Assembly (NCBI GenBank): GCA_030154185.1
Contig: JASKKK010000004.1
Coordinates: forward strand, 1 to 64,000
Origin: Desulfuromonadales bacterium
GTDB lineage: Bacteria; Desulfobacterota; Desulfuromonadia; Desulfuromonadales; Syntrophotaleaceae
Reading direction: 5' to 3'
DNA: 64,000 nt
This document shows, piece by piece, positions 8,934 to 45,314 of the stretch. The notes under the pieces are model-generated. The model saw only the letters and a list, made by a program, of their open reading frames with translations, was not told the origin of the DNA and ran no database searches. Numbering within the stretch: the stretch's first letter is position 1; each line of letters opens with the position of its first letter. The position numbers and the translations under genes are program-made.

Positions 8934-10805
8934 TCAGCCTCCGGCGGTGATGTCGGCTTCAACCACGTAGCGTTTGATTTTTCGGGTTGTTGTTTTGGGA
9001 AATTCGTCATCACGCAGGGTGAAACGCTTGACCCGTTTGTAATCAGCCAGACGCTTTCCGGCTTCCAGCACTTCGCGTCGGAGCAGGTTTTCCACATCTT
9101 TTTCGCTCAGAGGCTGAAGTTCATTCTCCTTCGCGTAATTATCCAGCGCCTCCTGGTCCGGATAGATGATAGCATGGACTTCCTCGGCCGTTGGTGAAAG
9201 CCGGTGTCCATAGACCATCACTTCCGCAATGAAGGGGCATTTGAGCAGTTCGTTTTCGACTTCTTCGGGGTAGACGTTCTTCCCGTTCGGGGTGACAATC
9301 AGGTTTTTCATGCGTCCACAGATGGATAAATAGCCGTCCTCATCCAGGCGTCCCAGGTCGCCGGTGTGATACCAGCCATCGATAATGGCTTCGGCCGTGG
9401 CTGTGGGGCGTTTGTAGTATCCCTGCATGACATTCGGGCCTTTGACCAGGATTTCTCCGACTCCTTCCTCATTGGCGTTGTCTATGCGCACCTCGACTCC
9501 GGGGATAACCTTTCCCACGGTTCCCGGCCTGCGTTTGTGAGGACTTTCCGCGGCAATAATCGGCGAAGTTTCCGTTATTCCGTAGCCTTGCAGTATGGTG
9601 AGTCCCAGGTTGGCCATGCCTCGAGCGATTTCGGGATCGAGGGCGGCGCCGCCGCTTACGAAAGTAATGTTTTTGCCGAGGGCTTTGCGCACCTTGGAGG
9701 CAACCAGGGGGCGGGTTAGGGGAACGGCGAAAAGCGTTCTGGAAAGGAACTTGTCCTCGATGCTGCGGCTCATGCGCCCCAGAAGTACCCGATACACAGC
9801 GGGCACGCCCATGACATAGGTCGGTTTTTCCTCGACCAGATTCTGTCCGACCTTTTTCAGAGATTCCGCAATGGATACGGTGCCGCACAACGACAGAGGA
9901 GCCAGGACGCCGGCCACCTGTTCGAATACGTGGTTGACGGGCAGGAAGGAAAGGGTATGCATGCTCTCCTCGACCTCCAGGTGGCGGACAGCTGCTTGAA
10001 TGTTGCTGACAATGTTGGCATGGCTGAGCATAGCGCCTTTGGCTCGCCCGGTGGTCCCCGAGGTGTAGAGGATGACGGCCGAGTCTTGAGGAGATCGGTT
10101 CGACGGCGGATCCATGCCTTCTACGGCGAATTGTTCGATGAAGTCCAGCTGCACACGGCGGAAAAAGGAACGTTTTGATTCCTCCGAGTCGTTGAATACG
10201 CTGGGCGCGGCGGAGGGGGGGCGACTGAAAGGGTGCGAGCCTTCAATCTGCTGGAGAAGTATTTTTTCCAGGCGACGCCCAAGGGTTTCGACATGTCTTC
10301 GCGCTTCACCCGGAATGCGGTACTGCTCGACGAGCCTGCGCCATTCATCGACGATTTCTCCCATGGCGTTTTTGACCTGGGGCAGCAGGGAAGGGCCGGT
10401 GTTTTCATCCAACAGGACGACTTTTTCGAGGGCGGGCAAATCTTCGCCAATCTCGAAGAGCAACTCCAGGTAAGCCCGTTCCGTCAATACCAGTCTGGCA
10501 CCGCAATCACCCAGAACATGCCGTAATTCCCCTGCCTTGAGTTCCTTATCGACCGGAACCACTATCCCTCCGCTTCGCATGATGGCGAGATAGGACTCTA
10601 TCCAGGCCGGTGAAGTAGATCCTATCAGGGCTACGCGGTCGCCCTTGCGCACGCCCCAGCGGCACAGACCACAGCTGATGCGCTCGACCTGGCTCCACAT
10701 TTGTCGATAGGTAATGGCCTGCCAGGATCCCGCAACCTTGTGGCGTATCGCGGTCTTGTCCGGCGATTTTTTTACGGATTTCTCGATCAGTTCATCTACG
10801 GTCAT
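8934..10805 (-). CDS. Long-chain fatty-acid-CoA ligase (AMP-forming)
   Basis: About 623 residues of the ANL adenylating superfamily. Signatures in order are YTSGTTGRAKGAML (P-loop, near residue 240), FLPVNHVFEQ, LQGYGITETSP (A5), YHTGDLGRLDEDGYL (A7) and NLIVTPNGKNVYPEEVE (A8 and linker), and a conserved lysine occurs near the end in KTTTRKIKR. It activates fatty acids to acyl-CoA with ATP. The open frame starts at 10991, but GGGAGGA lies ten bases before the ATG at 10805 (MTVDELIEK), which is where family members begin. The gene is divergent from lepA. The exact chain length is not predictable. Confidence 0.88.
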   Translation of the reverse strand: MTVDELIEKSVKKSPDKTAIRHKVAGSWQAITYRQMWSQVERISCGLCRWGVRKGDRVALIGSTSPAWIESYLAIMRSGGIVVPVDKELKAGELRHVLGDCGARLVLTERAYLELLFEIGEDLPALEKVVLLDENTGPSLLPQVKNAMGEIVDEWRRLVEQYRIPGEARRHVETLGRRLEKILLQQIEGSHPFSRPPSAAPSVFNDSEESKRSFFRRVQLDFIEQFAVEGMDPPSNRSPQDSAVILYTSGTTGRAKGAMLSHANIVSNIQAAVRHLEVEESMHTLSFLPVNHVFEQVAGVLAPLSLCGTVSIAESLKKVGQNLVEEKPTYVMGVPAVYRVLLGRMSRSIEDKFLSRTLFAVPLTRPLVASKVRKALGKNITFVSGGAALDPEIARGMANLGLTILQGYGITETSPIIAAESPHKRRPGTVGKVIPGVEVRIDNANEEGVGEILVKGPNVMQGYYKRPTATAEAIIDGWYHTGDLGRLDEDGYLSICGRMKNLIVTPNGKNVYPEEVENELLKCPFIAEVMVYGHRLSPTAEEVHAIIYPDQEALDNYAKENELQPLSEKDVENLLRREVLEAGKRLADYKRVKRFTLRDDEFPKTTTRKIKRYVVEADITAGG

Positions 10806-10991
10806 GAAAGAAATGTCCTCCCGCCTGGCGGATAGTGATGAACGAGGAATCGTATAAAAGGCCTCGTCCTGCGAATCTGCTTTTAAATGGGGAATGTTAG
10901 CCACCTCGCAGCGGAGAATCAATGTTAAAATCCCATGGAGGGAGCCCGTCCGTCGGGCGCTGGCGGCCATGGCGTTTCGTCGCCTTTTCAC

Positions 10992-11020
10992 TTTACAAAA
11001 TCAAGGGGTTCCTGTAAATT
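10992..11020 (+). promoter_or_regulatory. Sigma-70-like promoter for lepA-lepB
   Basis: TTTACA (10992-10997) and TAAATT (11015-11020) are separated by 17 bases, about 46 bases before the lepA start. A second -10-like TATAAA follows near 11041, so the exact start point is uncertain. Confidence 0.4.
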
Positions 11021-11066
11021 AATCCATTCGCAAATCTTATTATAAACCTTACGGAAAAAGAGGCTC

Positions 11067-12866
11067 ATGGACCGCAGCAGGATTCGTAACTTTTCCATTA
11101 TAGCCCATATCGATCATGGCAAGTCGACATTGGCGGATCGTCTTCTCGAGACGACCGGCGCTCTTACCGATCGCGAAAAAACCAATCAGTTTCTCGACAA
11201 GCTCGACCTGGAGAGAGAACGCGGTATCACCATCAAGGCTCAGGCTGTACGCTTGAAATACCGTGCCGATGACGGCAAGGACTATATCCTGAACCTTATC
11301 GATACGCCGGGGCATGTTGACTTCAGCTATGAGGTGAGTCGTTCGTTGGCCGCCTGCGAAGGCGGTCTGCTGGTGGTCGACGCCTCCCAGGGCGTGGAGG
11401 CTCAGACCCTGGCCAACGTTTACCTTGCCATCGACCAGAACCTCGAGGTTTTCCCGGTCCTCAACAAAATAGATCTGCCTGGAGCCGAACCGGCGCGCAT
11501 CAAGGACGAGATTGAAGAAATTATCGGGCTGGATGCTTCCGATGCCGTTGAGGCGAGCGCCAAGGAGGGCATCGGGATACACGAGATACTCGAAGCCATT
11601 GTTGCCAAGGTGCCGCCCCCTTCAGGCGATGCCGAGGCTCCTTTAAAGGCGTTGATTATCGATTCCTGGTACGATTCCTATCAAGGGGTTATCATGCTGG
11701 TCAGGATCGTTGAGGGAACCCTCAAGAAGGGGGAGAAGATCCACCTCATGGCCAGCGGCCGTAGTTATGAAGCGCTCAAGGTCGGAGCTTTCGCACCTCA
11801 TCCCGTCGAGATGTCCGAATTGGCAGCCGGGGAAGTCGGTTTTGTCATTGCCGGCATCAAAGTTCTGCAGGACGCCAAGGTCGGAGACACCATAACCCAT
11901 TTCCATTGCCCTGCGGAAAAGCCTTTGCCCGGTTTTCAGGAAGTCAAGCCGATGGTGTATTCCGGTCTGTACCCCATAGACAGCGGGGATTACGACGCCT
12001 TGCGGGATGCCATGGAGAAGCTGCGGCTGAACGATTCTTCGTTTTCATTCGAGCCCGAAAATTCTCTGGCTCTGGGATTCGGTTTTCGCTGCGGATTTCT
12101 CGGCCTGTTACACATGGAGATCGTTCAGGAACGTCTCGAGCGCGAATTCAACATGGAGTTGATCACCACCGCGCCGACGGTTCGCTACCGCGTTACGACC
12201 ACCAAGGGGGAAGAATTGATCGTCGACAGTGCCAACAAGCTGCCCGACGTGCAATATATCGATCAGATTTTCGAACCCTTCATTATTGCCTCCATACATG
12301 TCCCCAACGATTACGTTGGCGGCGTACTCGCCCTGTGCGAAGAGAAACGCGGTGTCCAGCGTGAAATCAAATATCTGACCTCCAACAGGGTCATGGTTGT
12401 CTATGAGCTGCCCCTGAACGAGATCGTGCTCGATTTTTACGACCGCCTCAAGACGGTGACTCGGGGCTACGCATCCCTCGATTACGATTTTCTCGATTAC
12501 CGGCCCAGCGACCTGGTTCGCCTGAATATCCTGGTCAACGGCGAAACCGTCGATGCTCTCTCTCTCATCGTCCATCGCGATAAATCGCAAATGCGCGGCA
12601 GGGAGCTGGTCGGGAAAATGAAGGAATTCATACCCCGGCAACAGTATGAGGTTGCCGTGCAGGCCGCCATAGGCAACAAGATCGTGGCACGTGCCAATGT
12701 CAAGGCATTGCGTAAGGACGTTACCGCCAAATGTTATGGTGGAGATATCTCCCGAAAACGCAAACTGCTCGAGAAGCAGAAGGAAGGTAAAAAACGCATG
12801 AAGCAGGTCGGCAATGTCGAGCTGCCGCAGGAAGCCTTCCTTGCCATCCTCAAAGTAAAGGAATAA
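11067..12866 (+). CDS. lepA: Elongation factor 4 (LepA), back-translocating GTPase
   Basis: 599 residues, full family length. G-domain motifs are AHIDHGKST (G1), RGITIKAQ (G2), DTPGH (G3) and NKIDLP (G4); the C-terminal domain ends with the basic tail [24 protein letters not shown] that defines LepA. The factor binds ribosomes and affects initiation and elongation under stress. The start is fixed by the invariant [18 protein letters not shown]-type N-terminus. It forms an operon with lepB four bases downstream, a very common pairing. Confidence 0.97.
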
Positions 12867-22174: not shown

Positions 22175-24328
22175 ATGTCCCTTAAGCCCACCTATGAACA
22201 AAAGCATAAACTCCTTGCCACTCCCCTGGAGTCCATCCGGGGAGTTGGCCCCCGCCTCGTGGAAAAGTTCGCAAAAATGGGGCTATCGACGGTTGAACAT
22301 GCCCTTTTCACCCTGCCTTTTCGTTACGAAGACCGCCGTCGTCTTACCCGCATCTCGCAATTAACACCAGACACCAGAGATATCTTTTTCGGATCGGTGC
22401 TTGCCGCCGGAGAAAAAACCACCTCGCGTTCTCATCGGAAGCTGTACGAAGTTATTGTCGGTGATGGCAGTGGCACTGTCAGTCTCAAGTGGTTTCATTA
22501 TCGAAAACCCTGGATTGAAAAACAGTATCCTGTCGGCCGGCGGGGGGTCTTTTACGGCGAAATAAAGCGTTTCGGCTCGATACTCGAAATTCACCATCCG
22601 GATGTGGAGTTTCTCAGTCAGGGGCAATCACCCGAGGCCCTGTTGCAATCGGACCCTCTCAATTTCGGGCGTATTCTTCCCGTTTATCCCCTGACCGAAG
22701 GGTTGACGCAAAAAAAGGCCCGCAAGATCTGGAAGGAGATTGTGGACCGTTTTGCCGGTCTGGCGGAATCTCCGATTCCCGAGGAGATTCGCCGGCGCCA
22801 ACGTCTGCTGCCGCTATCCGATGCCTTGCGCCAAGTCCATTTTCCGCATTCCGATTCCTCATTAAAAAAATTGGAAGAGAGAAGGGACGCCGCCAGAAGA
22901 ACCCTGGTGTTTGACGAATTCTTTTATCTTGAACTCGGTATGGCCCTGAAACGGCGGGGTATTTTGCTCGAACAAGGTCACGCTTTTCGCGTGGAGCACT
23001 TATATACCAAGCCTTTGGCCAGGATGCTTCCGTTCAGGCTGACCGAGGCGCAGCGCAGAGTGCTTGGCGAGATCAAAAAGGATATGATGGCACCGCATCC
23101 GATGAATCGTCTTCTTCAAGGAGATGTCGGCAGCGGCAAGACGGTTGTGGCGCTTATGGCAGCTTTGGTAGCCATCGAAAATAATACCCAGGTTGCCGTG
23201 GTTGCTCCTACGGAAATCTTGGCGGAGCAACATTTTTTTCAATTTCAAGGTTGGATGAAAGCTTTGGGATTGCATGTGGTTTTTTTGTCGGGAGCTACAT
23301 CAGCGGCAGAACGACGGGATATTCTGGAACAACTCCAAACAGGCCATGCCCATATGGTTGTGGGAACGCATGCCGTTCTTCAGAAGGATGTCCATTTTGC
23401 CAATCTCGGCCTGGGAATTATCGACGAACAACACAGGTTCGGCGTTTTACAAAGGGGATGTCTGCGTAAAAAGGGGAAGCATCCCGATCTCTTGGTCATG
23501 ACGGCAACTCCGATTCCCCGCACTCTTGCCTTGACCGTATACGGTGATCTCTCCTTGTCGGTCATCGATCAGCTGCCACCAGGCAGGAGCCCGGTGGTCA
23601 CCAAGGTCCTTCTGGAGGGTCAACGTCGCAAGGCCTTCGAAGAGATTTCCAGAGAATTAAACGAAGGCCGTCAGGCCTATATTGTCTATCCCCTGGTTGA
23701 AGAGACGGAAAAAAGCGACTTGCTTGCAGCTACCGAAGGGGCTGAATATCTAAGCGCGAAGATTTTTCCCGACAAGACTATCGGAGTGCTCCATGGCAAG
23801 ATGCGCACCGATGAAAAGGAAACGATCATGCGTTCTTTCAAGTCGGGGAATTTGGATGTCCTTGTTTCGACAACCGTCATTGAGGTCGGTATCGATGTGC
23901 CGAACGCCACGGTAATGATGATAGAACATGCCGAGCGATTCGGTCTTGCGCAATTGCATCAGCTGCGCGGACGGGTCGGACGTGGCGCTTGTCAAAGTTA
24001 TTGCCTGATGATCAGATCCCGCAGGTGCAGCGAAGACGGACTCCGAAGACTTGAAGTTATGGCTTCAACGACGGACGGTTTCAAAATTGCCGAAGCGGAT
24101 TTGGAAATTAGAGGGCCCGGAGAATTCCTCGGCACCCGACAGGCCGGGGTGCCGGACTTTCGAGTTGCCAATCTTCTGAGCGACGGTCGTGTTCTCGAAC
24201 AGGCACGGCAAGAAGCTTTTTCCATTGCCGAAGACCCTGCATTTTTGACCGCTGACCGGTACGGAGAGCTTCGCCAGGCCTTAAAAGACCGGTGGGGTGA
24301 CCGTCTCGAGTTGGCAAGCCTCGGGTGA
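22175..24328 (+). CDS. recG: ATP-dependent DNA helicase RecG
   Basis: 717 residues. An N-terminal wedge/OB region (DGSGTVSLKWFHYRKPWI near 100) precedes the SF2 helicase core: Walker A GDVGSGKT near 313, motif II as DEQH (IIDEQHRFG near 415), motif III TATPIPRT, and LRGRVGRG near 598. It unwinds branched DNA and remodels stalled forks. AAGGAGG nine bases before the ATG fixes the start. It is the last housekeeping gene before the accessory region. Confidence 0.95.
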   Translation: MSLKPTYEQKHKLLATPLESIRGVGPRLVEKFAKMGLSTVEHALFTLPFRYEDRRRLTRISQLTPDTRDIFFGSVLAAGEKTTSRSHRKLYEVIVGDGSGTVSLKWFHYRKPWIEKQYPVGRRGVFYGEIKRFGSILEIHHPDVEFLSQGQSPEALLQSDPLNFGRILPVYPLTEGLTQKKARKIWKEIVDRFAGLAESPIPEEIRRRQRLLPLSDALRQVHFPHSDSSLKKLEERRDAARRTLVFDEFFYLELGMALKRRGILLEQGHAFRVEHLYTKPLARMLPFRLTEAQRRVLGEIKKDMMAPHPMNRLLQGDVGSGKTVVALMAALVAIENNTQVAVVAPTEILAEQHFFQFQGWMKALGLHVVFLSGATSAAERRDILEQLQTGHAHMVVGTHAVLQKDVHFANLGLGIIDEQHRFGVLQRGCLRKKGKHPDLLVMTATPIPRTLALTVYGDLSLSVIDQLPPGRSPVVTKVLLEGQRRKAFEEISRELNEGRQAYIVYPLVEETEKSDLLAATEGAEYLSAKIFPDKTIGVLHGKMRTDEKETIMRSFKSGNLDVLVSTTVIEVGIDVPNATVMMIEHAERFGLAQLHQLRGRVGRGACQSYCLMIRSRRCSEDGLRRLEVMASTTDGFKIAEADLEIRGPGEFLGTRQAGVPDFRVANLLSDGRVLEQARQEAFSIAEDPAFLTADRYGELRQALKDRWGDRLELASLG

Positions 24329-24358: not shown

Positions 24359-24386
24359 GGTTTACATAATATATATTATCCGACTC
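24359..24386 (-). other. dif-like XerC/XerD recombination site
   Basis: Read on the minus strand, the 28 bases divide into an XerC-type arm GAGTCGGATAA, a 6-base centre TATATA, and an XerD-type arm TTATGTAAACC. Against the proteobacterial dif consensus as I recall it (arms RNTKCGCATAA and TTATGTTAAAT around TGTATA) 22 of 28 positions agree, including all inner arm bases. It lies 31 bases downstream of recG and 31 bases upstream of a phage-type replication module. It could be an attachment site of an integrated element, or the chromosomal dif itself. Confidence 0.6.
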
Positions 24387-24400
24387 AACGGGTAATCTTG

Positions 24401-24430
24401 CCTGGGGAGGTCTTCTATGACTTCCCCAGG
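24401..24430 (+). promoter_or_regulatory. Hairpin enclosing the ribosome site and start codon of the 72-aa gene
   Basis: CCTGGGGAGGTC (24401-24412) pairs with GACTTCCCCAGG (24419-24430) through 12 positions, one a G-U pair, with loop TTCTAT. The stem contains the SD GGGGAGG (24405-24410) and the ATG (24417-24419) straddles loop and stem, so translation would be repressed when folded. In a rolling-circle element the same hairpin could instead be the replication origin. Confidence 0.6.
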
Positions 24431-24635
24431 TCAACGCGTCCATGCTGAGGCTACCGCCCGTCTCGATCGGCTGCAATTCTACGTTGACAGCCTGACCAAT
24501 ATCGAGCGTTCCAAGCTCGCCGCTCGCTATCTCCGCAAAGTCCCCGAAAAATACCGCCGCTATCTGCTGCGTAAGCTGACCATTGCACAGCTGGCCTTCT
24601 GTGAAGTCTTTTCGCGGGAGGTGAACGGATGGTAG
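24417..24635 (+). CDS. 72-aa small protein of the Rep module
   Basis: A 72-residue, mainly helical basic protein I do not recognise. It has a likely coiled stretch around RLDRLQFYVDSLTNIERSK and a basic patch KVPEKYRRYLLRK. The SD GGGGAGG is six bases upstream of the ATG but lies in a hairpin. It overlaps the Rep gene by seven bases, so the two are translationally coupled, and a decayed copy exists at 31378-31570. Position suggests a replication accessory or control protein; that is inference only. Confidence 0.6.
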   Translation: MTSPGQRVHAEATARLDRLQFYVDSLTNIERSKLAARYLRKVPEKYRRYLLRKLTIAQLAFCEVFSREVNGW

Positions 24636-25657
24636 CCCCCACCTCTGCACGGCTCCAAGATCCCGGTCCAGAGCAACGGAGGCAGGACGAGTCTTCGCCC
24701 TTGCGAGAGCGAGTCCACGCCGACGATGTGACGGGATCGGCGTTTGTCGATCCCGAGCGAAGCGCTTTTGGCGCGGAGCGATCACCGCTTGTTTCTTCTC
24801 CCATATCTCAAAAACCCCTTCCGGAAACCATCGAACTTTACCAGCAGACCATTAGAGTCAAGCGAATCTTTTATGGTCGGATCCCTGTCGCTCCTAATCG
24901 TAAAGACACGGAACTGCAGGGCTTTTCCGATAAGTCCCGAGGCCGACTCCGGTTCGTTGCTGCTAATGCGGGTCATCATCTGATCAGTCAGTTTTGCCTG
25001 ACCTATCACAACCTGTGGCCCATCGATGGCCGGGAGTTCAAGCGACAAACCAATCTGTTCTTAACTCGTGTGCGGCAACACTTCAAGGGGGTTCGGTATC
25101 TGTGGGTTGGGGAGTTTCAGAGGCGTGGTTGCCCTCACCTGCATTTTTATTCTTCCATTCCAGTAACCCCTGAAAATCACGAATTCCTTGCTCGTACCTG
25201 GCACTCGATTGCCGATCCCAATAGCACCGACCACCTGATCTGGCACCGCCACCCGAGCACCTTCATTCCGTGGGAAATGTTCACCGGTTCCTATCTCTGC
25301 AAGTACCTCGACAAGCAACACCAGAAGGCCATTCCCGAGGGCTTCCGGTCCTTTGGCCGCTGGTGGGGTAACAGTCGGGGGTTGGTCGACAAACCGAAGA
25401 TTACGACTCCCGAAGAGATCGACAACGAATTTTCCTATGAAATCATAGACCATGAAACCGGCGAGATCCTCGAAGAGTTCAAAGCTTCCGTCTGGATTCT
25501 GCGCCAGATCGGACGTTATCACGAGCATAAGAACCGCCGGTCATGGTTCCGGAAGACCTCCAGAACCACAAGCGCTCTGACCGGTGCGCCCATATTCCGG
25601 CAGTTGCTGGACTATCTACGGAAGCAACCGCCATTACCTCAGCCCGTCCCATTTTGA
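24629..25657 (+). CDS. HUH-family rolling-circle replication initiator (inovirus-like Rep)
   Basis: 342 residues. The core has WVGEFQRRGCPHLHFY near residue 165, containing the His-hydrophobic-His (HLH) metal motif of HUH endonucleases, and YLCKYLDKQ near 225 with the Tyr-x3-Tyr/Lys catalytic arrangement seen in filamentous-phage and satellite Rep proteins. These nick one strand at the origin and stay attached through the tyrosine. The first 70 or so residues are low-complexity and charged. GGGAGG lies seven bases before the ATG. It is flanked by two small genes and a dif-like site, which fits an Xer-integrated phage or satellite. Assigned from motifs, without a database search. Confidence 0.7.
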   Translation: MVAPTSARLQDPGPEQRRQDESSPLRERVHADDVTGSAFVDPERSAFGAERSPLVSSPISQKPLPETIELYQQTIRVKRIFYGRIPVAPNRKDTELQGFSDKSRGRLRFVAANAGHHLISQFCLTYHNLWPIDGREFKRQTNLFLTRVRQHFKGVRYLWVGEFQRRGCPHLHFYSSIPVTPENHEFLARTWHSIADPNSTDHLIWHRHPSTFIPWEMFTGSYLCKYLDKQHQKAIPEGFRSFGRWWGNSRGLVDKPKITTPEEIDNEFSYEIIDHETGEILEEFKASVWILRQIGRYHEHKNRRSWFRKTSRTTSALTGAPIFRQLLDYLRKQPPLPQPVPF

Positions 25658-25675
25658 CCAGCAAAGGAGAATCCC

Positions 25676-25855
25676 ATGCCGAATGTCATCGAATCGATTA
25701 TCAACATTGCCGACCATCCGGACAACTTCTACCGTGTCCAGATTGCTCAGTACCGGAAAGGAAACGATGAAGACGCCGATATCATCAAGGAATTCGACCT
25801 TGCCCGCAACGATACCACCGGTCTCCTTCTCACGATTCGCAGCCTTAACCGATAA
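25676..25855 (+). CDS. 59-aa small protein downstream of Rep
   Basis: A 59-residue protein beginning MPNVIESIINIADHP and ending LLLTIRSLNR. AAAGGAGA lies six bases upstream of the ATG, a better ribosome site than those of most genes here, and the stop is three bases before a terminator hairpin. Moderately acidic centre (GNDEDADIIKEFD). No family recognised. Being 18 bases after Rep and inside the same terminator, it is the third gene of the module; filamentous elements often carry a single-strand-binding or control protein at this place, but nothing in the sequence proves that. Confidence 0.6.
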   Translation: MPNVIESIINIADHPDNFYRVQIAQYRKGNDEDADIIKEFDLARNDTTGLLLTIRSLNR

Positions 25856-25858
25856 CGA

Positions 25859-25885
25859 GGACGGTACAAGTAATACCGTCCTTTT
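25859..25885 (+). terminator. Terminator of the Rep module
   Basis: GGACGGTA (25859-25866) pairs with TACCGTCC (25874-25881), loop of seven, followed by TTTT. It closes the three-gene operon directly after the 59-aa gene. Confidence 0.75.
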
Positions 25886-26368: not shown

Positions 26369-27466
26369 TCATTCCGATTCAAAGTTGAGCACGCAGAGAT
26401 TACCGGCCGGATTGGGACGGAAGCACCCATTGCAAGAGGTGCAGCGGGCCGGTCGGCAATCGCCATCCTGCCAGCGCTTTACAAGCTGCGGTTCGGCCAG
26501 CAGCGGTCGCGCCATGGAGAAGTAATCGATTGGCGTAGTTTTCAGCAGATTTTTAATCACCTCGATCGAGCGCAGGCCGCCCACCAGCAGAATCGGTACG
26601 TCAAGTTCATCGGCGAGTTGCGCGGCATGTTCGGCGTTGTATGCTTCCTTTTCGGGAGCGTCGATGCGCATACGACAGGGGCCGAGTTTTCCGGAGGCAA
26701 AGGTGCCACAACTGACTTCGATGGCATCGATGCCGCTGGCAGCCAGTTCTCGACAGAGGTAGCGACAATCCTCAAAGGTAGCGCCCTTTTCGATATAGTC
26801 TTCCGCGTTAAGTTTGATCAACACCGGGTAATCTGCGCCCACCCGGCTGCGAACTTCGTTGAAAATTTCCAGGATAATGCGCGCACGATTCTCGATTGAA
26901 CCGCCGTATTCGTCGGTGCGGCGATTGTAGTAGGGGCACAGGAACTGGTTGAGCAGGTAGCCATGAGCACTGTGAAGCTGGATGCCGTCGAAACCAGCCG
27001 CCTTGGCCCGGGTAGCGGCCTCGCCATAGGCTTTGACCAGGGTTTGAATATTTTCCTGGGACATCTCATGGGGAACCACCTTGAAGGCCAGGTCGGCGAC
27101 CTCAGACGGTCCCCAGATGTTCCGATCTTCGGTCCGATAATTGGTTTGCGAACCGCCGTAGGCGAGCTGCATGACGATGCGGCTGCCATGACTATGCACC
27201 ATCTCGGTCAGTGGGCGGTAATCTTCGATGAAACTGTCGTCGTAGATGCCCATCATGCCAGGGTTGGGCTGTTCCTCGGCCAAGGGAAATGCGTAGCCCG
27301 TGATGATAAGACCGACTCCCCCACATGCCAATCCCTCGTAGAGCTTGAACAGCGACTCAGTCATGTGGCCAGACTGGTCGGCCATGTTTTCCCAGGTTGC
27401 ACTGCGGATCAGGCGGTTCTTGAGGGTCATGGAATTAATCTTTGTTTCGTCGAATAGGGTGCGCAT
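26369..27466 (-). CDS. Old-yellow-enzyme family NADH:flavin oxidoreductase
   Basis: About 365 residues, single TIM-barrel OYE domain. Visible are the N-terminal KNRLIRSATWEN, the active-site region GFDGIQLHSAHGYLLNQFLCPYYNRRTDEYGG near residue 165 (His pair for substrate, YGG turn), and VGGLRS near 305. The C-terminal tail CTSCNGCFRPNPAGNLC keeps four cysteines like the 4Fe-4S segment of 2,4-dienoyl-CoA reductase relatives but lacks their extra domains. AAGGGAGAG precedes the ATG at 27466. Probable ene reductase of unknown substrate; divergent from the HxlR gene that probably controls it. Confidence 0.85.
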   Translation of the reverse strand: MRTLFDETKINSMTLKNRLIRSATWENMADQSGHMTESLFKLYEGLACGGVGLIITGYAFPLAEEQPNPGMMGIYDDSFIEDYRPLTEMVHSHGSRIVMQLAYGGSQTNYRTEDRNIWGPSEVADLAFKVVPHEMSQENIQTLVKAYGEAATRAKAAGFDGIQLHSAHGYLLNQFLCPYYNRRTDEYGGSIENRARIILEIFNEVRSRVGADYPVLIKLNAEDYIEKGATFEDCRYLCRELAASGIDAIEVSCGTFASGKLGPCRMRIDAPEKEAYNAEHAAQLADELDVPILLVGGLRSIEVIKNLLKTTPIDYFSMARPLLAEPQLVKRWQDGDCRPARCTSCNGCFRPNPAGNLCVLNFESE

Positions 27467-27576
27467 AATATCTCTCCCTTGCAATAGATGCTTTTGAGGT
27501 AATTGGGCAGGTTCTTAGGTTGTTCCGCCCGTCCTTTTTTGCTATGATCACATGTACGAATATTTAAGGCAATAAC

Positions 27577-27607
27577 GCACCTTTTCGGTACGTAGGCACC
27601 TTTTAGG
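27577..27607. promoter_or_regulatory. Direct-repeat operator candidate between oxidoreductase and HxlR gene
   Basis: GCACCTTTTCGG (27577-27588) and GCACCTTTTAGG (27596-27607) are direct repeats 19 bp apart, close to two helical turns, in the divergent intergenic region. This is a plausible binding site for the HxlR-family protein; function is inferred from position. Confidence 0.45.
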
Positions 27608-27656
27608 AACTATTGAAGGAAAAAGAATGATACAAAGGAATCTTGAGGAGAAAAAA

Positions 27657-27980
27657 ATGCTGGTCTTTCGCGATCAGGAATACAAGTGCGGTATCGATTT
27701 GACCCTGGCAGTGATTGGCGGTAAGTGGAAGGCGGCTATTCTTTACCATCTCGCGCAGCAGACCATGCGTTTTTCGGAACTGCAGCGTCAGTTCCCCGAC
27801 ATCACTCGCAAGATGTTGACTCAGCAGTTGCGCGAGCTGGAACGGGACGGGCTGGTTCATCGCGAGGTCTATCCCCAGGTACCGCCAAAAGTGGAGTACT
27901 GGCTCACCGACAAGGGGCGGAGCATCAAGCCCATCCTCGATCTTATGTGCGAATGGGGGGCAGAGCATACAGAGGGGTGA
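27657..27980 (+). CDS. HxlR-family winged-helix regulator
   Basis: About 107 residues. It has the family signature [22 protein letters not shown] at residues 10-31, a recognition-helix region [24 protein letters not shown] and the wing [17 protein letters not shown]. HxlR proteins bind as dimers to divergent promoters and answer to reactive electrophiles or aldehydes. GAGGAG six bases before the ATG at 27657 supports that start; an in-frame ATG at 27627 with AAGGA also exists. It is divergent from the oxidoreductase, with direct repeats between them. Confidence 0.85.
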
Positions 27981-28123: not shown

Positions 28124-28312
28124 TGGACACTCCTGAGGTATAAAAAAATCACACTTCAGGAGGATCTCATGAGCAGCAAACGTTACACCGAAGAGTTCAA
28201 GATCGAAGCCGTCAAGCAAGTCACGGAATGCGGCTATTCCGCTTCCGAAGTGGCTCGGCGTTTGGGCGTGGTGAATGCCCACAGCCTTTACGCCTGGATC
28301 AAAGAGTGTCTA
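28124..28312 (+). mobile_element. IS3-family remnant, about 189 bp, with both outer ends
   Basis: Left end TGGACACTCCTGA (28124-28136) is the typical IS3-type terminus and the right end GAGTGTCTA (28304-28312) is close to its complement GAGTGTCCA. Between them is only the start of orfA; orfB and most of orfA are missing, as in an internal deletion derivative. No clear target duplication is visible. Confidence 0.6.
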
Positions 28313-28348
28313 ACAAACCGGGGTCGATTCAGTTTTCTCGCAATGTAG
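28169..28348 (+). pseudogene. Truncated IS3-family transposase OrfA
   Basis: MSSKRYTEEFKIEAVKQ begins a typical IS3 OrfA helix-turn-helix (Tnp-1 type), with AEV-like spacing ASEVARRLGV and HSLYAWIK. After residue 44 the frame leaves the family at the IS right end and runs through 15 unrelated residues to TAG at 28346. CAGGAGG is upstream of the ATG. Only the DNA-binding half remains and there is no catalytic OrfB, so it is inactive. Confidence 0.75.
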
Positions 28349-28625: not shown

Positions 28626-31217
28626 GTGGCCGATAAACAGAGCCTAACTATGCAGTCCATAAAATTGCCCGGCATTTATGCACTTTTGGGTTTCTTATGG
28701 ATTCTTTTTTCCGACAAACTCATCATATTAATTACTCATGATGTCGATAGCCTGGTTCATATCCAGACCTACAAAGGGTGGTTTTTTATTATTGCAACAG
28801 CCATTCTGCTCTATCTGCTTCTTCGGCGGACCTTAATTGCCCGGCAGTACATAGAAATTTCTCTGAGAAATAGCGAGAAACACCTTTCGGCAACTCTGAG
28901 TTCCATTGGTGACGGCGTTATCAGTGCCGACATTCACTGCAGGATCGTCAGTATCAACCGCGCGGCAAAAAACCTTACCGGCTGGAACTGCAGTGACGCC
29001 CTGGGGAGGAGCGTCCAAGGAATTTTTCCCATAATAAACGCCCAAACCCGAAAAGAGGTCGAAAATCCCGTGGAGCTTTGCCTTCGAGAGGACAGGGCTA
29101 TGGAGCTTGCCAACCACACCCTCCTTATTACCCGGGATGGCACAGAGCGTCATATCGCAGGAAGTTGTTCACCTATTCATGATACGGCCGGGAAGATCAT
29201 TGGAACGGTGCTTGTTTTTCGCGATGAGACCAAGGAATATCGTTACCGCCAGCAACTCGACGAGGAAAGGGAGCGTCTGGCTAATGTGGTTTGGGGGACG
29301 GGTGTTGGCACATGGGAGTGGAATGTCCAGACCGGCGAGACCCGTTTTAACGAACGCTGGGCGGAGATAATCGGGCATTCGCTGGAAGGCCTCTTCCCCG
29401 TTAGCATCAAGACATGGGAGAAGTTTTTACACCCCGAGGACCAAAAGTCATCAATGGAGGCATTGGAACAACATTATCAGGGCGAAACCGAATATTATGA
29501 GTGTGAATGCCGCATGCGCCACCAAGCCGGTCATTGGGTTTGGATTTTGGATCGTGGCAAGGTAGTTTCATGGACTAAAGACGGTAAACCGCTTTGGATG
29601 GCAGGGATTCATCTGGACATCACCGATCGAAAACGGGAAGAAACGATTCGGCGTTTAAGCGATGAGCGTCTTGAGAGTATTTTTCGTGTAGCGCCGATCG
29701 GCATCGGGATGGTACGGGAAAGAGTAATCTGTGAGGTTAATCAGCGTTTTTGTGAAATGATAGGGTATTCCGCTGAGGAACTCATTGGCAAAAGCGCACG
29801 CATACTTTACCCCACTCAAAAAGATTATGATGTTGCCGGCGAGACAAAGTATGCCCAGATAGAAAGTTTTGGTACAGGGGTCGTTGAAACTCGCCTTTTA
29901 AGAAAAGACGGCAGTTTTATTGACATACAGCTTTCTTCCGCAGCCTTGAATCCAAACGATTTTTCCCAAGGAGTCACCTTTACCGCGCTGGATATCACTC
30001 AGCAGAAAAAAGACCAAGATAAAATCGCATATTTGGCTCATCATGACCAGTTGACCGGGTTGGCAAACCGTTTCCTGTTTGCCGAACATTTTGAACTTGC
30101 TGCCGGGCATGCACTGCGAACCAAAACCAAATTGGCCTTGTGCGTGCTTGATTTGGACAGCTTCAAGGCTATAAATGATTCCCATGGACATCCTCAGGGA
30201 GATCAATTGCTATGCGAGGTTGCAAAGCGCCTAAAAAACGCCGTCCGGTCCAGCGATACCGTGTGCCGTATCGGGGGTGATGAATTTCTCATTCTGTTCA
30301 CTGATCTTCCGAAAAGTGATGCCGTTACCGCCCTGATCCAAAACATTCAGGATTGTTTCGAACCCCGTTTCAACGTTGAAGGTGTGCCCCATTTGATTAG
30401 TGCCAGCATGGGAGTAGCGATTTTCCCAGAAGACGGTAATCAATTTTCCATCCTTTTCGAACATGCTGATTCCGCAATGTATTATGCCAAGGAATCCGGG
30501 CGCAACAGAGCCCAGTTTTTTCGCCGGGAAATAAGTGAGCGCATACAGCATCACTTGACTGTAGAGAAAGAACTGCGTCAGGCACTGCTTAGCGATCAAC
30601 TGGAATTATACTACCAGCCTATCGTCCAATTACCCGCCCAGCGTATGGTGGGAATGGAGGCACTGGTACGTTGGCGGCATCCACAGAAAGGGTTGCTAGG
30701 GCCCGACTATTTCATTGCTGTGGCAGAAGAATCAAATCTCATTGTTGTTCTCGGAGAGTGGGTTCTCAAAACCGCCTGTCGGGATATAGCGGCTTGGCGC
30801 AAAATGGGCCTACCGCCTCTGCCCGTCTCAGTCAATATCTCTGCCAACCACCTTTTCGAAGAGGATTTCGCCGCTCTCATCGGGCAAATTATTGCGGACA
30901 ACAACCTGTCTCCACAGCAACTTGAATTGGAAGTAACGGAAAACATTTTCCTTGAGAGTTCCGATACAGTGGAAAATGCAATGAAGAGTCTCAAGGATAT
31001 TGGCGTCGGTTTAAGTCTGGATGATTTTGGCACCGGATATTCCAGCCTCAGCTACCTTAAACGATTCCGGATTGAGAAGCTAAAAATTGACCGCTCATTC
31101 ATGGAGCATGTTTGTCATGTTCAGCAAGATGCCGTACTGGTAAGGACTATCATTCGTATGGCCAAGAGCTTGGGAATGCAGGTGGTTTCTGAAGGTGTAG
31201 AGACAAACAGTCATTGA
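28626..31217 (+). CDS. Membrane PAS-GGDEF-EAL cyclic-di-GMP protein, C-terminus frameshifted
   Basis: 863 residues from a GTG start (AGAGGAGG seven bases upstream). Two membrane helices (about 15-36 and 48-66) are followed by three PAS domains (about 80-200, 220-335, 345-455), GGDEF with an intact CRIGGDEF near 550 and the inhibitory RxxD (RSSD) five residues before it, then EAL with MEALVRW near 677, ELEVTENIF, DDFGTGYSSL, KLKIDRS and SEGVET. Both catalytic sites look intact up to there. The frame then stops early, and the missing tail, with the conserved QGF motif, continues in another frame to 31366. One lost base near 31212-31216 explains this. Confidence 0.85.
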   Translation: MADKQSLTMQSIKLPGIYALLGFLWILFSDKLIILITHDVDSLVHIQTYKGWFFIIATAILLYLLLRRTLIARQYIEISLRNSEKHLSATLSSIGDGVISADIHCRIVSINRAAKNLTGWNCSDALGRSVQGIFPIINAQTRKEVENPVELCLREDRAMELANHTLLITRDGTERHIAGSCSPIHDTAGKIIGTVLVFRDETKEYRYRQQLDEERERLANVVWGTGVGTWEWNVQTGETRFNERWAEIIGHSLEGLFPVSIKTWEKFLHPEDQKSSMEALEQHYQGETEYYECECRMRHQAGHWVWILDRGKVVSWTKDGKPLWMAGIHLDITDRKREETIRRLSDERLESIFRVAPIGIGMVRERVICEVNQRFCEMIGYSAEELIGKSARILYPTQKDYDVAGETKYAQIESFGTGVVETRLLRKDGSFIDIQLSSAALNPNDFSQGVTFTALDITQQKKDQDKIAYLAHHDQLTGLANRFLFAEHFELAAGHALRTKTKLALCVLDLDSFKAINDSHGHPQGDQLLCEVAKRLKNAVRSSDTVCRIGGDEFLILFTDLPKSDAVTALIQNIQDCFEPRFNVEGVPHLISASMGVAIFPEDGNQFSILFEHADSAMYYAKESGRNRAQFFRREISERIQHHLTVEKELRQALLSDQLELYYQPIVQLPAQRMVGMEALVRWRHPQKGLLGPDYFIAVAEESNLIVVLGEWVLKTACRDIAAWRKMGLPPLPVSVNISANHLFEEDFAALIGQIIADNNLSPQQLELEVTENIFLESSDTVENAMKSLKDIGVGLSLDDFGTGYSSLSYLKRFRIEKLKIDRSFMEHVCHVQQDAVLVRTIIRMAKSLGMQVVSEGVETNSH

Positions 31218-31366
31218 AATTCCTGGTTGATGAAGGATGTGAGCTGGCCCAAGGGTTTTTCTTCAGTAAACCCTTGCCGCTTGACGCTATTCAAGAGATG
31301 CTGAACCGGCCTGAGGTGTGCGGATTAGACTATTCCAAGACAAATTTCAGGCCTAGGTCCTCCTAG
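31217..31366 (+). pseudogene. Detached C-terminal tail of the EAL domain
   Basis: In the next frame the expected continuation reads KFLVDEGCELAQGFFFSKPL and runs to TAG at 31364-31366. It supplies the last helix and the AQGFF motif of EAL domains. No slippery heptamer is visible at the junction, so a deletion or a sequencing error is likelier than programmed frameshifting. Confidence 0.75.
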
Positions 31367-31377
31367 CTCTTATTACT

Positions 31378-31570
31378 CATGCTGAGGCTACCGCCCGTCT
31401 CGATCGGCTGCAATTCTACGTTGATAGCCTGACCAATATAGAGCGTTCCAAGCTCGCCGCTCGCTTTCTCCTCAAATTCCCCGAAAAATACCGCCGCTAA
31501 CTGCTGCGTAAGTTGACCATTGCAGAACTGGACTTCTGTGAAGTCTTTTTGCGGGAGATGAACGGATGGT
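31378..31570 (+). repeat. Decayed second copy of the 72-aa Rep-module gene
   Basis: These 193 bases align without gaps to 24441-24633; I count 12 differences. The copy begins inside the gene (no ATG, no leader hairpin) and has a TAT-to-TAA change at 31498-31500, so it is not functional. Similarity stops where Rep would begin. No dif-like site is seen beside it. It marks a second insertion or one end of a rearranged element. Confidence 0.9.
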
Positions 31571-45242: not shown

Positions 45243-45314
45243 GAAAGAGCCGGCGATATTAGTTTGGGAATATATTATTCGACTTGAGAAAGGGGATATG
45301 GGGTGAACCGCGGT

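Follow-up and report, generated by a model that had tools for sequence, protein, structure and literature searches.

A selfish element of about 1.5 kb, with its own replication gene and without an integrase, appears from its sequence to sit beside the chromosomal dif site in the window (the whole stretch of 64,000 nucleotides analysed here). Such elements seem to insert repeatedly at dif, most likely via host XerC/XerD, a dependence deduced from the anatomy of the sites. We consider it highly probable that an Xer-exploiting element has integrated on the XerC side of the chromosomal dif in the window. The comparative data are best read as a TLC-like, Xer-exploiting (IMEX) family of satellites in Desulfuromonadia, which would have two undescribed hallmark proteins. 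A preliminary description of this DNA had proposed a Xer-exploiting satellite or its remnant; this was borne out by a Rep family integrated at dif and by half-site duplications in relatives.

The dif site (GGTTTACATAATATATATTATCCGACTC) occupies positions 24359-24386, and the conserved left neighbour recG (22175-24328, plus strand; Pfam RecG_wedge and RecG_dom3_C) ends 30 bp ahead of it. On the plus strand the site reads XerD arm GGTTTACATAA (24359-24369), centre TATATA (24370-24375), and XerC arm TTATCCGACTC (24376-24386). The site is oriented on the minus strand, where GAGTCGGATAA-TATATA-TTATGTAAACC gives XerC arm, 6-bp centre, and XerD arm. The dif of Geobacter sulfurreducens was given by Carnoy and Roten as ACGTCCCATAAGATATATTATGTAAAGT (PMC2731167). 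The window dif was identical to it at 21 of 28 positions by hand count. It also agreed at 20 of 28 positions, again by hand count, with the sequence that we take to be E. coli dif; the initial estimate against a consensus had been 22 of 28.

The site stands out from chance: the core ATAAN6TTATGTAAA occurred once without mismatch in the 2.9-Mb, 118-contig assembly. When up to two mismatches were allowed, the whole assembly gave 28 matches vs. 30 for the reversed pattern, the control for chance matches. The preliminary description had called for a search for a second dif-like site in the genome, and no other good match was found in the 2.9-Mb assembly. A degenerate form of the site turned up in 69 of the 98 relatives, almost without exception as a single copy. 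Most fetched loci had the gene order carB-greA-recG-dif, the recG stop codon being 28-53 bp ahead of dif. Cumulative GC skew, calculated for the window only, peaked at 31.3 kb, ~7 kb from dif. KOPS sites (GGGNAGGG), few in number, were mostly convergent on dif (left, 4 plus and 0 minus; right, 1 plus and 5 minus). KOPS and skew position give modest support to a chromosomal dif. The assembly encodes XerD (above the curated cut-off) and a second, XerC-like recombinase. Because 24359-24386 is the lone good match in the genome, lies near the skew switch among convergent KOPS, and is recG-adjacent across the order, we regard it as the chromosomal dif of the bacterium, with a predicted recombination function. 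The preliminary description had offered this identity as one option, and the single copy per genome, order-wide recG adjacency, nearby skew switch and KOPS polarity bear it out. The same site would double as the functional junction (attL) of the element.

The three-gene unit (24417-25855, plus strand) consists of ORF-A (24417-24635, 72 aa), an HUH rolling-circle replication initiator, Rep (24629-25657, 342 aa), and a third and last ORF of 59 aa (25676-25855). A terminator-like hairpin with a T-run (GGACGGTA...TACCGTCCTTTT, read directly) closes the unit at 25859-25885 on the same strand. The gap between dif and the ORF-A start at 24417 is 30 bp, close to the 31 bases first described. The 59-aa ORF gave no significant family match; it holds the position of an RHH/CopG-like gene of relatives and has no similarity to that gene. 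A hairpin at 24401-24430 (plus strand; folding z = -3.6) has the ORF-A start codon in its loop or edge and the Shine-Dalgarno sequence in its 5′ arm. In relatives a hairpin directly after dif precedes both ORF-A and the unrelated ORF-B genes at the same position, with folding z-scores of -2.4 to -5.1 across seven sequences. It may control translation or serve as the Rep origin; both are candidate roles.

The middle gene had been read as an HUH endonuclease, and the profile search confirmed this. Rep carries the HUH motif PHLHF (residues 169-173) and the catalytic motif YLCKY (222-226), and matched Pfam PF23343 REP_ORF2-G2P (5.8e-12; 46.2 bits vs. a cut-off of 27.8). PHROG 3419 (rolling-circle initiation) was matched by 9/9 members of the Rep family. 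Both His residues of PHLHF and the Y, C, K and Y of YLCKY were invariant in nine Rep homologues. Y1_Tnp (PF01797), the REP-associated/IS200-type HUH transposase family, was absent from the Pfam matches of Rep; a match to REP-associated transposases had been named in advance as evidence against the proposal. The AlphaFold model of Rep was only fair (pLDDT 68). The top PDB matches to it were weak and for the most part HUH nucleases (AAV Rep, parvovirus NS1, Helitron, pMV158 RepB), and they would lend weak support to the HUH identity.

As first described, the unit contained no integrase, coat or Zot-type genes, and the Zot family had no match anywhere in the assembly, which is ~90% complete. No relatives of Rep were found among deposited phages, plasmids or IMG/VR viral contigs. 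Of the Inoviridae traits, the G2P-type rolling-circle initiator was present (PF23343, PHROG 3419); the ORFs seen in both-junction relatives included neither a pI/Zot assembly ATPase nor coat proteins. The term "inovirus-like" in the preliminary description thus held for the Rep family (G2P/ORF2) and failed for the rest, no morphogenesis gene having been found. On its gene content, we would not file the element as an inovirus.

Of 277 genomes in the class, 13 had a Rep homologue; among about 395 sampled across the phylum, 2 others gave weak matches. Named carriers in the same order are Desulfuromonas sp. CSMB_57, Malonomonas rubra SZUA-375, and Desulfuromonadales GWC2_61_20. Each of the eight complete chromosomal Rep homologues (G000, G045, G073, G122, G126, G025, G054 and G171) lay within 0.8 kb of dif, in genomes of about 3-5 Mb. 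Rep lay on the XerC (right) side of dif in the window, G045, G073, G122 and G126, and, inverted, on the XerD (left) side in G025, G054 and G171. A location at dif without an integrase of its own, one IMEX trait, was seen in the window and seven other Rep-bearing lineages.

In six other Rep-bearing lineages the element was bounded by a full dif and an exact half-site repeat (14-25 bp), 2.2-3.6 kb apart. In the right-side elements, an exact repeat of the centre and XerC arm lay 2.4-2.7 kb past the full dif, as in TLCphi: G045 (18 bp, TATATCTTATCCGACGTT, 2406 bp from dif), G073 (15 bp, 2552 bp), and G122 (19 bp, 2707 bp). No half-site was found for G126. In the left-side elements, the XerD arm and centre were repeated: G025 (22-25 bp, at -2228), G054 (21-25 bp, at -2325), and G171 (14 bp exact, 18/21 over the site, at -3563). 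G057, a Rep-less left-side case, had a 16-bp repeat of XerD arm and centre 1621 bp from dif. The second IMEX trait, a modified dif, was thus seen in G045, G073, G122, G025, G054, G171 and the Rep-less elements described below, and was not found for the window copy. At fetched dif loci without an intact Rep, no repeats of at least 11 bp were found within 7-9 kb, except in G057 and G079, both of which carry relics. The elements of G045, G073 and G122, for which both junctions are present, contained only 3-4 small genes.

Decay and stacking were visible in several lineages. G031, a sister of G045, retains ORF-A and the initial part of rep, after which the same RNA-binding-protein gene resumes; G045 has its half-site at that junction. 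The G031 locus is, by this comparison, a probable deletion relic of a G045-type element. Older decayed copies lay beyond a half-site in G073, G013 and G079, G122 had a second ORF-B copy, and tandem relic copies followed the half-site in G073 and G122. In G079 (L028), a half-site with a Rep/ORF-B relic, in dif orientation, lay 7.3 kb from dif, a spacing close to that of a decayed ORF-A copy in the window. A history of Xer insertions at a dif that is restored each time would leave such tandem, decayed and half-site-bounded copies; here we infer the enzymology.

Two carriers had additional features. In G171 (L142:8985-12571), the Rep/ORF-B element lies at a Geobacter-type dif and includes an FRG-domain gene (10726-11439) that matches the PADLOC candidate defence family PDC-S15; it is possibly cargo between Rep and the distal att. 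In G006 (Desulfuromonas sp. CSMB_57; L021, the same contig as NZ_JAFCIY020000080.1), a Rep of 57% identity is encoded on a 6-kb contig that has a 67-bp terminal repeat and also encodes a resolvase and, by eye, a further replication-like protein. This contig is probably a plasmid that uses the same Rep family.

For the window copy, a search by pattern and by score, for either type of half-site, revealed no recognisable distal att. The best candidate, at 45269 (15/19), was rejected: its score was within chance, and the implied 21-kb element would contain a tRNA gene. A decayed second copy of ORF-A was found at 31378-31570 (plus strand), with 94% DNA identity, an in-frame TAA, no start codon, and substitutions spread across all codon positions. 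No dif half-site preceded this copy, which was rejected as an att-bounded second element and kept only as a decayed duplicate. The window arrangement resembles G073 and G079 in having relic copies farther out from dif; the window junction itself is unreadable. The replication unit of the window copy thus looks intact, and its distal att would have been lost or have diverged. Because of the lack of a recognisable distal att and the decayed ORF-A duplicate, it is probably immobile by excision, either locked in or a remnant.

The region separating the element from the decayed ORF-A copy contains an Old-yellow-enzyme gene divergent from an HxlR regulator (26369-27980) and, by eye, an IS3-type orfA fragment (28169-28348). 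A PAS-GGDEF-EAL gene (28626-31370) directly before the decayed copy looks frameshifted near 31217.

The first gene of the elements is either ORF-A (72 aa) or ORF-B (~140 aa). Neither matched a database family. Homology between the two was unsupported (hhalign profile comparison, probability 2.6%). ORF-A gave a four-helix AF2 model (pLDDT 93) with no match in a fold search. Its homologues, 58-78% identical, were present in about 12 other genomes and adjoined dif wherever the contig permitted a check. In G002, G003, G005, G006, G007 and G031, ORF-A stands solo at dif without Rep, and the downstream DNA differs between genomes. In total, seven relatives retain ORF-A or ORF-B by itself at dif, and such a solo gene may now be a host gene and not part of an element. 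dN/dS between solo ORF-A copies was mostly 0.15-0.25, pointing to selection that likely continues on them.

ORF-B was found in 46 of the 277 genomes of class Desulfuromonadia, representing 26 of the 82 genera. Among 30 ORF-B loci fetched by protein alone, 28 had a dif or half-site (17/24 or better) within 1.5 kb; the reversed-sequence control gave 1/30, at threshold 18/24. Several of these loci (G141, G162, G164, G166, G198, G202, G250 and G272) were Rep-less elements of 1.3-1.8 kb, bounded by a dif or half-site at one end and a centre-plus-XerC half-site at the other. Most contained an RHH-like gene and ORF-B, the latter usually in a form of ~160-180 aa. Such elements, at loci L168, L169, L170, L172, L174, L176, L179 and L180, lie in other families of the class. 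Judged by these elements, Rep is apparently optional and ORF-B the common gene; this suggests a role for ORF-B in Xer recombination or its control. More speculatively, ORF-A/ORF-B would be an element regulator or an Xer-modulating factor. A V. cholerae IMEX encodes a XerD-activating factor, XafT (PMC9765430). It is a tentative idea, which we think less probable than not by a clear measure, that ORF-A and ORF-B are dif-dedicated families with an XafT-like role, licensing Xer recombination for small elements, and that some hosts keep them alone as a dif-linked gene. With an RHH regulator they would then suffice for mobility, given the existence of Rep-less elements of 1.3-1.8 kb.

In the proposed cycle, the HUH Rep would drive rolling-circle replication of the element as a small circle. 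As in TLCphi, the attP of the element would combine an XerC arm and centre that match dif with a degenerate XerD side, and host XerC/XerD would recombine attP with dif. This recombination would restore the full dif on the recG side and leave a centre-plus-XerC half-site at the far end, the arrangement present in relatives. Later insertions at the restored dif would push older copies outwards, Rep decaying first and then the rest, in keeping with the tandem relics.

The unit could instead be a resident, non-mobile chromosomal module kept at dif for the benefit of the host, e.g., to help dimer resolution. Solo ORF-A at dif in six genomes, its dN/dS values, and the missing distal att of the window copy are consistent with this. 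However, Rep-bearing copies have half-site duplications, lie on either side of dif, occur in tandem and decayed forms, and are sporadic within the class (13/277), and the solo ORF-A copies are followed by unrelated DNA or, in G031, by a rep fragment, as deletion relics would be. We therefore consider a resident module unlikely. An equally improbable origin is a full inovirus prophage stripped of its coat and assembly genes. In its favour, Rep is a member of the G2P/ORF2 family, and inoviruses integrate at dif elsewhere in bacteria (PMC2731167, PMC4246890); however, the absence of Rep relatives from IMG/VR viral contigs and deposited phages, the 3-4 small genes of the both-junction elements, and the lack of Zot in this assembly argue against it.

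A chance neighbourhood of dif and an unrelated Rep or transposase-type HUH gene might be considered for the window copy by itself, which has no second junction. This is contradicted by the comparative data, i.e., the position of 8/8 complete chromosomal Rep homologues at dif, the dif or half-site in 28/30 ORF-B loci vs. 1/30 controls, and the lack of a match between Rep and any transposase-type HUH family; we give it hardly any credence. An integrated Xer-exploiting element is the preferred reading.

The closest counterpart of these elements appears to be TLCphi, a Vibrio cholerae satellite at dif that has a replication module and neither morphogenesis genes nor an integrase, and whose attP keeps the XerC arm and centre with a degenerate XerD side (PMC4246890). 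The elements share with it the dif location, an autonomous replication gene, the lack of morphogenesis genes and integrase, and, in right-side relatives, an att that keeps the XerC arm and centre; the window copy offers no distal site for this comparison. Satellites of the TLCphi type are carried in the virions of a helper phage; the assembly here had no Zot match. They differ in size (about 1.5-2.7 kb), in a Rep without relatives among deposited phages, and in their accessory genes (ORF-A/ORF-B, RHH), and some relatives keep the XerD arm instead or have no Rep. CTXphi, VGJphi, UPphi and other dif-integrated inoviruses likewise use the host dif and a rolling-circle Rep; however, the coat, adsorption and Zot/pI assembly proteins that these phages encode are absent from the elements here. 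Dif-integrated gokushovirus prophages also place a small replication gene of ssDNA-phage type at dif, and encode a major capsid protein, whereas none was seen here. CTXphi-type elements are also found in arrays (PMC4246890). Legionella LME-1 and the gonococcal genomic island, also IMEX, leave an intact dif and a modified one (PMC9765430). Relatives of the window element show the same intact/modified pair. LME-1 uses a single XerL recombinase. Both LME-1 and the gonococcal genomic island are much larger and have other gene content.

Most of what is known of Xer-exploiting elements comes from vibrios and a few other pathogens. No reports of such elements in Desulfuromonadales or Geobacter were found in the open-access literature, and these are provisionally the first for class Desulfuromonadia; the novelty is provisional because open-access literature coverage was incomplete. 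Here a whole class of environmental bacteria carries very small Xer-exploiting elements, down to 1.3 kb, with one or two recognisable genes. The same recG-dif locus is hit recurrently, and insertion, tandem stacking and stages of decay are all visible. ORF-A and ORF-B provide protein markers for finding further elements. Together, these loci form a natural series for asking what minimum is needed to use XerCD, whether a single dif arm suffices, and how a dimer-resolution site tolerates repeated insertion.
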